From: Spirochaetales bacterium
Lineage (GTDB): Bacteria > Spirochaetota > Spirochaetia > UBA9216
Reading direction: 5' to 3'
Assembly: GCA_016342585.1 (NCBI GenBank)
Contig: JAEINK010000004.1
Location: 95,779 to 159,778, forward strand
DNA length: 64,000 nt
Position 1 is the stretch's first letter. Every line of letters begins with the position of its first letter. A model generated the notes under the pieces. That model was not told the DNA's origin, did no database searches, and worked only from the letters and a program-made list of their open reading frames with translations. A program made the translations under genes and the position numbers. Below are positions 5,147-64,000 of the stretch, in pieces.

Positions 5147-5536
5147 ATGTCTGCGGACGAAGTAAAAGATACAGCTCCGGAAAGAAGTGCACCTGCTGAG
5201 GGTGGTACTCCCAACCGGGAAAGAAGCTACAATAATGACCGGGGAGCCGGTGGTGATAGAGGTGCCGGTGGTGATAGAGGTGCCGGTGGTGATAGAGGTG
5301 CCGGTGGTTTTAGAGGCAGAGGAAAGGGATTTTTTCGCAGAAAAGTTTGTAAATTCTGTGTTCAGAACCTGACTGTTGATTATAAAAACCCCGACAGCTT
5401 AAGACGTTTCGTAACTGAACGAGGGAAAATCCTTCCTCGAAGAATTACCGGAACTTGTGCAAAGCATCAGAGAGCAATGGCTAAAGAAGTCAAAAGATCC
5501 AGAGTTCTCGCTTTACTACCTTTTGTAAAGCAGTAG
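5147..5536 (+). CDS. rpsR: 30S ribosomal protein S18 (bS18) with repetitive Gly/Arg-rich N-terminal extension
   Basis: [54 protein letters not shown] core. Confidence 0.93.
5243..5314 (+). repeat. Four tandem 18-bp units inside rpsR
   Basis: ggagccggtggtgataga / ggtgccggtggtgataga x2 / ggtgccggtggttttaga; encodes GAGGDR repeats. Confidence 0.95.
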
Positions 5537-57548: not shown

Positions 57549-58604
57549 TCAGTCGTTGAGTGATGATTGTTCCTTGAATAGATCTTCCAGTACCAGGGCT
57601 GCCATGGATTCGATCACTGGAATTATACGGGGACAGATGCATGGATCATGCCTCCCTCTGGTGATGATTTCTGCCGGCTTTCCGTTAACCCCCAGGGTTT
57701 CCTGAGGGGCTTCAATGGAAGATGTTGGTTTTACTGCTGCTCTGAAAAGGATCTCTTCTCCGGTGCTTATACCGCCAAGAATCCCTCCGGCATTGTTGGT
57801 CTGAAAACCATCCTCATCCATCCAGTCATTATGTTCTATTCCACTCATATCGGCACAGGCAAATCCGGCACCGAATTCAATCCCTTTAACGGCTCCCAGG
57901 GAGAGAATTGCGTGGCCAAGCAGAGCATCAAGTTTATCGAAGACCGGTTCACCAAGTCCTGCCGGAACACCCGTAATCCTGCACTCGATGATACCTCCCG
58001 TACTGTTTCCCTCATCAATCAATTTTTTTACCCGTTTTTCCATCTCTTTTGCTGCTACCGGGTCGGCCGCTCTCATGGGGTTTTTTTCTATTTCATTAAA
58101 ATTGATTGTTTTACAGGAGACTCCCGCGGCTCTGAGTGTATAGGCCGTAATCTCTATCCCACGAAGCTTAAGGAGTTTTTTGGCCACAGCTCCTGCGGCA
58201 ACCCGACCGGCTGTTTCTCGTCCCGAAGCCCTTCCGCTTCCCCTGTGATCCCTTAAACCGTATTTTTTAAGAAAAGTGAAATCGGCATGGCCAGGTCGGA
58301 AGAGATCCTTTATTGAATCATAGGCTGAAGGATCTGCATCACTGTTGTGAAGGAGCATCATTAAAGGGGTTCCTGTTGTCTTTCCTTCAAAAATTCCAGA
58401 GAAAAAGTGAACTTCATCGGACTCCTTTCTGGGAGTAGTGACATCCGATTGCCCCGGTTTTCTCCTGTCAAGTTCGCTCTGTACCTCTGTTTCGGTAAGC
58501 TCCAATCCGGGTGGGACGCCATCGATTATTACACCCACACCTGCCCCGTGAGATTCTCCAAAGGTTGTTATTTTAAAAAGTTTTCCAAAGGTGTTTCCAG
58601 CCAT
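57549..58604 (-). CDS. aroC: Chorismate synthase
   Basis: TFGESHGAGVGVIIDGVPPGL; DHRGSGRASGRETAGRVAAGAVAKK. Confidence 0.97.
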   Translation of the reverse strand: MAGNTFGKLFKITTFGESHGAGVGVIIDGVPPGLELTETEVQSELDRRKPGQSDVTTPRKESDEVHFFSGIFEGKTTGTPLMMLLHNSDADPSAYDSIKDLFRPGHADFTFLKKYGLRDHRGSGRASGRETAGRVAAGAVAKKLLKLRGIEITAYTLRAAGVSCKTINFNEIEKNPMRAADPVAAKEMEKRVKKLIDEGNSTGGIIECRITGVPAGLGEPVFDKLDALLGHAILSLGAVKGIEFGAGFACADMSGIEHNDWMDEDGFQTNNAGGILGGISTGEEILFRAAVKPTSSIEAPQETLGVNGKPAEIITRGRHDPCICPRIIPVIESMAALVLEDLFKEQSSLND

Positions 58605-58627
58605 ATTGTTCTCCTAACATTTCTATT

Positions 58628-59182
58628 TTACAGATTTTCTTCCAGCAGCTCCAGAGCCCCCATAAGGGAAGCTCCTCTAAGTTTCACAACAGTCTCTGCT
58701 GTTTCATAATAAAGGGCGCATCTTTTCTCATAAATTGTTAAAAATGATCCTTTTGGATTCTCAGGATCAAGGAAGGAGGGGATCCCCCCTCTGATTATTC
58801 TTTCATAAAGCAGGTCTGCCGACTCATCAAGAAAGATAAGTCGACCTGCTGCTTTTAGAATTTCCATTAACCCCCGGTTTTCGATGGCCCCGCCGCCTAA
58901 AGCCAGAACGATGGTCTCTTTTTCCATTATGGAGGCTGCCATTTCTCCGGCCATCAGCTCAAGTTTCTGAAAGAGATCCTTAGAGTATCTATAGATCTCC
59001 CGGCAAACGGGCCTTACGCTCTCAGGAAAGTCCCTCCCCATTTTCTGAGCCTCTTTTTCCAGTAGATCATCAAGATCATAGAAGGGTAAATTCCGTTTTT
59101 TAGCGATTGTTCTTCCAAGGGTCGATTTTCCTGTATGTTTCATCCCCATAAGGATGAGGCTGGGGCTTTTTGTCAATTTCAT
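58628..59182 (-). CDS. aroK: Shikimate kinase
   Basis: LMGMKHTGKSTLGRTIAKKRNLPFYDLDDLLE; LALGGGAIE. Confidence 0.9.
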   Translation of the reverse strand: MKLTKSPSLILMGMKHTGKSTLGRTIAKKRNLPFYDLDDLLEKEAQKMGRDFPESVRPVCREIYRYSKDLFQKLELMAGEMAASIMEKETIVLALGGGAIENRGLMEILKAAGRLIFLDESADLLYERIIRGGIPSFLDPENPKGSFLTIYEKRCALYYETAETVVKLRGASLMGALELLEENL

Positions 59183-61393: not shown

Positions 61394-62590
61394 TTACTTT
61401 TCCGGTTTGGGTTCAATTCCATCCCTTGGGCTAATATATATCCTTTCCGCCTCTTCTGCAGCCTTAACAAGATATTCTTCGAGTTCAATCTTTTTATACG
61501 ACTCGGAAATCCTTTCGATATCCGGAGTGATGAGGGGATGTTTAGGACTGAAGATCGTACAACAATCCTCATAGGGGAGGATCGAAGTCTCATAGGTGCC
61601 GATTTTTCTGGCAATCTTTATAATCTCTTCTTTATCCATCCCGATAAGGGGCCGGAAAATTGGAAGGTTTGAGATAGAGTTTGTAAAACCTATACTGCTC
61701 ACTGTCTGACTCGCGACCTGGGAGAGAGCCTCCCCGGTAACCAGACAGCCGGCTTCCCTGTTCCGGCAGATTATTTCAGCCACCCGGACCATTCCCGCCC
61801 GCATATGAAGGGTCGCTTCATTGGTCGGTGCTACATCGCGTATCCTGAGCTGAGCCTCGGTGAAGGGAACTATGAACAGATTTACACCACCGCAGTAGGG
61901 AGCAATGAGTTTTGCCAGCTGAATAACTTTCTCCTTGGCCTCATCAGAAGTGTAGGGGTAGGCGTGAAAATAAACAGCATCGAGTTTTAATCCTCTTTTG
62001 GCCATGAGATATCCCGCAACAGGTGAATCAATTCCTCCGGAGAGGAGGAGGGTTCCCTTTCCGGCGCATCCGACAGGAAGTCCTCCCGGTCCCCGGAGGG
62101 GTGGCCCGTAGAGGATTGCCTTATCGCGTATTTCCACATTAAGTTTCCAGTCGGGATTTTTCACATCGACTTCAAGTTCAGGATAAGCATCGAGAAGAAC
62201 TCCTCCCAGGTGGGCAGAGAGTTCGTAGGAAGTCATAAAGTATTTTTTATCAGCCCTTCTGGACTCTACTTTGAACTTTGTGCCGGCCCCTCCATCCAGA
62301 AAAGCTTTACCAAGTTTAAGAGCCTCCTGGTTTATAACCTCTATGTCCTTCTTAACCGTGACACATTTGGAAAAGGAGGTTACGCCAAATGATGTTCCAA
62401 GAACAGTCCGGGCTTTCTCTCCATGTTCCGAATCGATGGTCAGATAGAACCTTCCATTCTGTCCTGAAAATTTTGAGGGGTATCCCCTCAGTCTGAATTT
62501 TATGTGACTCTTTAATTTCTGTTCAAAAAATTTTCGGTTACCACTTTTAAGTGATATTTCGCCGATTTTAACAAGATATATTTCTTCCAT
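61394..62590 (-). CDS. thiI: tRNA 4-thiouridine synthetase (sulfurtransferase), no rhodanese domain
   Basis: VKIGEISLKSGNRKFFE; LLSGGIDSPVAGYLMAKRG PP-loop; SQVASQTVSSI. Confidence 0.95.
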   Translation of the reverse strand: MEEIYLVKIGEISLKSGNRKFFEQKLKSHIKFRLRGYPSKFSGQNGRFYLTIDSEHGEKARTVLGTSFGVTSFSKCVTVKKDIEVINQEALKLGKAFLDGGAGTKFKVESRRADKKYFMTSYELSAHLGGVLLDAYPELEVDVKNPDWKLNVEIRDKAILYGPPLRGPGGLPVGCAGKGTLLLSGGIDSPVAGYLMAKRGLKLDAVYFHAYPYTSDEAKEKVIQLAKLIAPYCGGVNLFIVPFTEAQLRIRDVAPTNEATLHMRAGMVRVAEIICRNREAGCLVTGEALSQVASQTVSSIGFTNSISNLPIFRPLIGMDKEEIIKIARKIGTYETSILPYEDCCTIFSPKHPLITPDIERISESYKKIELEEYLVKAAEEAERIYISPRDGIEPKPEK

Positions 62591-62627: not shown

Positions 62628-63806
62628 TTACCTTCTTCTACCGGTAACTCTTCTTAATAGCTCAACTTCGTTTTCAAATATTTTGATCAGGGCTTCACAT
62701 TCGACCAGGCTTGTATCTGCCCCCCATGAGATCCTGATTGCAGAAAATGCAATATCTCGTGAGATCCCCAGACTATCGGAAACCCTGAATGTTTTTTTCT
62801 GCCTTGAGGAGCAAGCGGAACCTGTTGATACGGCCGCTCCTTTGTCATTTATAACCCTTGCAAGAACCTCTCCCGGTATTTGTGGAAAACTAACCATTAC
62901 TATCCAGGGTGAGTAACCCTCAGAAAGGGCTTTGTCCCTGGTGGGAATAATTTTTGCATTAGCCCTTTCTATAAGGTTATTAACAATAAAACGCTTAATT
63001 TCTTTGGCATGCTCCAAATCCGTTTCAAGATTTGCATATTTTTTCTCTATGGCAAGACTCAAGCCATGGATCCCCGGCAGGTTTTCCGTTCCTCCCCGAA
63101 GCCCCATTTCCTGTCCGCCCCCCCGGTTCAGCATAGCCTTCGGGTTTTTCAGGAAAAGTATACCACATCCCCTGGGTGCTCCAATTTTATGTCCTGAAAA
63201 TGAGGCGGCATCAACATCCCAGGCTGTGAGATCAATTTTCTGCTTTCCCAGGGCCTGCACACCATCTGTATGGATGAAGACCTCCTTTCCTGCATTCTCA
63301 GCACTCTGACGGAGATTCCCTACACTCTCCCTGACAGGAAGAATAACTCCCGTCTCATTATTAACGGCCATTAGTGATATGAATTCAGTCCCGATGGTGT
63401 AGGCTTTTATCAATGAATCCGGATCGATTGCCCCCTCTTTTAGGGGGGGAAGGATATTGAGTTTCCAGCCCAGGTCCTTAAGTGATTTTGCCGGTTCATA
63501 AACCGCCGCATGTTCAAATCCGGAGATGAGAATCTCTCCTGCCTGACGTCTTCGATTGAGCAGAGAAAAAATTATGAGGTTATTTGATTCGGTGCCACCG
63601 GAGGTGAAAATTATTTGTTCAGCCTTACAGTTCAGTTCTGTTGCGACCTTTTTGCGGCAGGTTGACAGGAGCTCCGATGCCTTTTTACCCTCTGAATGAG
63701 ATGAGGACGGATTTCCATAGAAATCAATTGCATCCCTCACTGTTTGTTCAAGAATTTCAGGATCAGGTTTAGATGTTGCAGCCCAGTCAAAATAGAGTCG
63801 TTCCAT
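62628..63806 (-). CDS. Cysteine desulfurase (NifS/IscS family)
   Basis: YFDWAATSKPD; TSGGTESNN; SFSGHKIGAPRGCGILF; STGSACSSRQK. Confidence 0.95.
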   Translation of the reverse strand: MERLYFDWAATSKPDPEILEQTVRDAIDFYGNPSSSHSEGKKASELLSTCRKKVATELNCKAEQIIFTSGGTESNNLIIFSLLNRRRQAGEILISGFEHAAVYEPAKSLKDLGWKLNILPPLKEGAIDPDSLIKAYTIGTEFISLMAVNNETGVILPVRESVGNLRQSAENAGKEVFIHTDGVQALGKQKIDLTAWDVDAASFSGHKIGAPRGCGILFLKNPKAMLNRGGGQEMGLRGGTENLPGIHGLSLAIEKKYANLETDLEHAKEIKRFIVNNLIERANAKIIPTRDKALSEGYSPWIVMVSFPQIPGEVLARVINDKGAAVSTGSACSSRQKKTFRVSDSLGISRDIAFSAIRISWGADTSLVECEALIKIFENEVELLRRVTGRRR

Positions 63807-63815
63807 ATCTTCAAT

Positions 63816-63844
63816 AATATAGCCACACTAAGGGCCTAGTGCAA
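63816..63844 (-). promoter_or_regulatory. Candidate promoter for the cysteine desulfurase-thiI run
   Basis: Minus strand TTGCAC (63844-63839), 17-nt spacer, TATATT (63821-63816). Confidence 0.35.
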
Positions 63845-63860
63845 GCGGTAAGCCTGTTTT

Positions 63861-64000
63861 TGCAGTTTTCCTTATGGGAACCACGAGGAAAACTATGGGA
63901 AAAAAACTATGCAGGTCCTAGTCTTTGCAGTTTTCCTTATGGGAACCACGAGGAAAACTATGGGAAAAAAACTATGCAGGTCCTAGTCTTTGCAGTTTTC
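63861..64000 (+). repeat. 65-bp tandem repeat, two full identical copies plus 10 nt, continuing past the window
   Basis: Unit tgcagttttccttatgggaaccacgaggaaaactatgggaaaaaaactatgcaggtcctagtctt starts at 63861, 63926 and 63991; internal inverted repeat agttttcct-N13-aggaaaact. Confidence 0.95.

Follow-up and report, generated by a model that had tools for sequence, protein, structure and literature searches.

A probable lineage-specific minisatellite of 65-bp units between divergent nifS and arsR genes of an uncultured spirochaete

The nifS-arsR locus and its promoters

The window analysed in this study, a stretch of 64,000 nt (G000:C2:95779-159778), ends at position 64000 with the last base of contig C2 (159,778), and its rightmost 142 nt (63859-64000) are occupied by an exact repetition with a period of 65 nt. 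Upstream of a nifS-type cysteine desulfurase gene, this array resumes at the start of a second contig, C79, and once the two contigs are joined it is located between divergent nifS and arsR genes (Table 1). The far flank, where the preliminary description had proposed looking for a nuclease, reverse transcriptase or recombinase, has none of these next to the array and bears arsR and aroB instead.

Table 1. Features of the joined locus. Positions are those of the window unless contig C79 is named.
Feature	Position	Strand	Basis or remark
thiI	61394..62590	(-)	Pfam PF02568; downstream of nifS
nifS-type cysteine desulfurase (aminotransferase class V)	62628..63806	(-), away from array	Pfam PF00266, E 3e-59
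Predicted nifS promoter, TTGCAC-17-TATATT	63816..63844	(-)	Placed by eye; -10 box 9 nt before ATG; outside array
Unit 1 of 65-bp tandem repeat	63859..63923	(.)	TRF and periodic start at 63859
Inverted repeat of unit 1, AGTTTTCCT-13 nt-AGGAAAACT	63864..63894	(.)	9 bp; unit 2 copy at 63929-63959
Unit 2	63924..63988	(.)	Same sequence as unit 1; identity due in part to the assembly loop
First 12 nt of unit 3	63989..64000	(.)	Cut by end of contig C2; array goes on in C79 (L006 1-105)
Predicted arsR promoter, TTGCCA-16-TATAAT	C79 135-162		Outside array
arsR-family regulator (ArsR-type)	C79 170-463		Right of array
aroB	C79 470-1510 (L006)		Just right of arsR

The nifS/arsR pair is not peculiar to this genome, which its relatives place among the spirochaetes. 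In four members of the same family (G002, G003, G004 and G006) the two genes are also adjacent and divergent, their matched coding regions lying 117-274 bp apart, and the divergent arrangement was found in 22 of 30 arsR loci (81-274 bp) taken from titled spirochaete records, those four included. C2, the array and C79 together thus rebuild this conserved pair, as expected if the two contigs belong together; the joined locus measures at least 328 bp from start codon to start codon. None of the 30 arsR loci contains the 65-bp array or a real match to its unit, the single 13-nt match in L158 being due to chance. The longest spacer among the relatives, that of G006 (L042:1221-1494, 274 bp), has an inverted repeat around GACGAAAAAAATCGTC that is unrelated to the 65-bp unit. 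It was also observed that aroC and a shikimate-kinase-like gene (window 57549-59182), both named from their translations, lie about 4.5 kb to the left of nifS; in the joined contigs shikimate genes flank the array on both sides, aroC and the kinase on the left and aroB on the right.

Both predicted core promoters lie outside the array and are directed away from it. The nifS call falls below the consensus threshold of the prediction tool and rests on inspection by eye together with an equal distance between -10 box and ATG in the relatives, whose nifS promoter reads TTGAAA-17-TATTAT. If this placement is right, neither the nifS nor the arsR transcript would include the array, as both predicted promoters are outside it. 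These observations agree with the preliminary description of a non-coding array adjoining a cysteine desulfurase promoter. A repeat protein encoded through the array, already thought unlikely there, was rejected: 65 is not a multiple of three, and stops occur in every frame on both strands.

Properties of the 65-bp unit

The array consists of near-identical units of tens of bp arranged head to tail, as is characteristic of VNTRs and minisatellites, and TRF reported a period of 65 with 100% matches within it. The exact 65-bp tandem described previously is therefore the same array, its start at 63861 representing another phase, and the 9-bp inverted repeat with a 13-nt loop and the duplicated AAACTATG were all found again in the unit. 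Each unit holds AAACTATG twice, and AGTTTTCCT and AGGAAAACT fold into a stem of 9 bp, inside which a second stem of 3 bp forms. Chance falls far short of explaining the repetition: not one dinucleotide shuffle of the window contained even a single copy of the 36-nt core. The hairpin itself is at most mildly unusual, because inverted repeats of at least 9 bp are carried by 10 of 982 ordinary 65-mers of the window (1%), compared with 6 of 2000 shuffles of the unit.

Contig ends and the length of the array

Within its own genome (5.0 Mb in 127 contigs), other copies of the unit were found only at the first bases of C79, which begins with 23 nt of a unit, continues with a unit altered in its last 11 nt and with the first 17 nt of another, and then passes into unique DNA. 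Exactly 77 array bases are present on C79 and 142 (77 + 65) on C2. Amongst the 74 contig ends examined, ten other pairs have exactly 77 terminal bases in common and many more share 71-76; sharing of 77 nt at contig ends is characteristic of de Bruijn assembly with k=77. In short-read assemblies of this kind a repeat region whose length exceeds k is left unresolved and contigs end on both sides of it (PMC6868369), and the tandem repeat considered here, longer than k and bounded by two contig ends, shows no notable difference from those cases. Two groups of contig ends in this genome (about 10 and 13) have as many as 77 nt in common, with TGAGTAGTTAC as the final bases, for example L074:1-77, L071:1-73, L124:1-71 and L130:1-75; they probably represent the ends of two related insertion sequences, present in high copy number, at which the assembly is interrupted.

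A k=77 graph simulated for the joined locus comprised two flanking pieces, left and right, with 77 array bases each, and a loop of 42 + 23; C2 corresponds to the left piece extended by a single pass through the loop. The simulated assembly broke at every tested array length of 184 nt or more and did not break at 119 nt. Based on the 77 and 142 array bases, the 77-nt sharing and the simulation, the periodic part of the array is at least 184 nt long (2.83 units) and is followed by a variant tail. A break at k=141, considered for the 142-nt left end, was dropped, since k=77 fits both the right end of 77 nt and the 77 nt shared at other contig ends.

The open appearance of the array is thus merely a consequence of the break that short-read assembly with k=77 makes at this site. 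The earlier impression that it is open at the window edge holds in that the array does continue, though the edge is the end of contig C2 and not merely the limit of the window. The uniformity of the units is likewise partly imposed by the assembler, as all internal copies collapse to one k=77 graph loop. Exact identity is required by the data for about 2.2 units only, enough to form the loop; to that extent the lack of variation noted in the preliminary description is real, whereas beyond it additional copies, like minor variants, would be invisible. That the repetition is altogether false, an artefact of assembly as its position between two contig ends might suggest, is very improbable, since a k=77 loop arises only when the reads hold at least 142 nt of exact period, and C79, as independent evidence, contains 1.2 exact units together with a partial copy that has diverged.

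Distribution and likely nature of the array

No relatives of the unit were detected in 59 other genomes, where matches of about 14-39 nt (E about 0.005 or worse) are attributable to chance given that so many genomes were searched. Blastn searches of phages and plasmids gave nothing, and exact scans for the unit in GTDB species genomes and IMG/VR viral contigs were empty, although records of its own genome may be left out there. The search of the genome and its relatives that had been proposed earlier thus returned the own locus only. No second exact array with a period of at least 25 was found in the 0.80 Mb of the genome sampled. An 18-bp tandem repeat (window 5246-5316, 3.9 copies, 96% match) possibly lies inside a coding sequence, as 18 is a multiple of three.

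Restriction to one locus and absence from the orthologous site in relatives are likewise typical of a VNTR, and the array is very likely a lineage-specific, VNTR-like minisatellite of small size, with no fewer than 2.83 exact 65-bp units and a variant tail, produced by local tandem duplication. This duplication, within the spacer that separates the divergent promoters of nifS and arsR, would have proceeded by slippage or unequal recombination, to which the hairpin and direct repeats inside the unit perhaps contributed, and copy number may differ between cells or strains. Any function would amount at most to altered spacing, curvature or supercoiling between the divergent promoters, for instance through a local cruciform or bend; quite possibly there is none, and the array can be explained without it.

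Comparable arrays are known from Mycobacterium tuberculosis. ETR-F/VNTR3239, upstream of fpg1, is also an intergenic head-to-tail array by a gene start, confined to one lineage and absent in relatives; in that case, copy-number variation and an effect on expression have been measured (PMC2734929). The MIRU in the senX3-regX3 intergenic region of strain H37Rv, with three identical 77-bp units (PMC4213456), is similar in unit size and number and in its position as identical tandem units in the spacer of a regulatory gene. MIRUs, however, are dispersed over several chromosomal sites, unlike the 65-bp unit with its one locus in 5.0 Mb.

The array might instead be cis-regulatory, with AGTTTTCCT-N13-AGGAAAACT serving as operators, for example for the adjacent ArsR-type repressor, and repeat number tuning nifS and/or arsR-aroB. 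Its position exactly between divergent promoters and the dyad in each unit would suit such a role, as would the correlation of upstream VNTR length with expression in M. tuberculosis (PMC2734929), and it is conceivable that the palindromic core is a genuine operator. An ArsR operator would be expected upstream of orthologous arsR genes; ArsR orthologues that are 70-72% identical, with an invariant QSQPVISQHLAVL stretch, lack such a palindrome upstream, and none of the 30 loci gave a unit match. Elsewhere in the genome, searches for the palindrome arms at up to three mismatches returned only matches with exactly three, at the frequency of the reversed-pattern control. Regulation by such operators is therefore considered unlikely. 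Less likely still is a far longer homogeneous array of palindromes, concealed in the gap that separates C2 from C79 and acting in this lineage as a protein-binding or topological insulator of the nifS from the arsR-aroB promoters.

The preliminary description had suggested that this may be the edge of a long non-coding array, whether of structured RNA repeats, of protein-binding sites or of mobile origin; the RNA and mobile-remnant readings gained no support. The unit does show a somewhat better fold than shuffled sequences (z -2.0 and -2.8) and the array may extend beyond 2.83 units; against this, no Rfam family matches the unit, no relatives were found that could show covariation, no predicted promoter on either flank reads into the array, and its right end degenerates within one unit straight into the arsR promoter region. 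An RNA array is accordingly highly improbable. A mobile-element or MITE remnant, to which the internal inverted repeat and the IS-like repeats at other contig ends might point, is the least probable of the readings: MITE and IS remnants occur as dispersed copies with terminal inverted repeats, whereas the genome holds no copy of the unit elsewhere, even at 3 mismatches of the core, and the IS-like terminal TGAGTAGTTAC is absent from it.

A perfect array at the edge of a window can thus mark a contig break, in which case the perfection of its units is partly assembler-made. Should the copy number of this minisatellite prove variable, it would be a marker for typing this uncultured spirochaete and a candidate for the tuning of expression in it.
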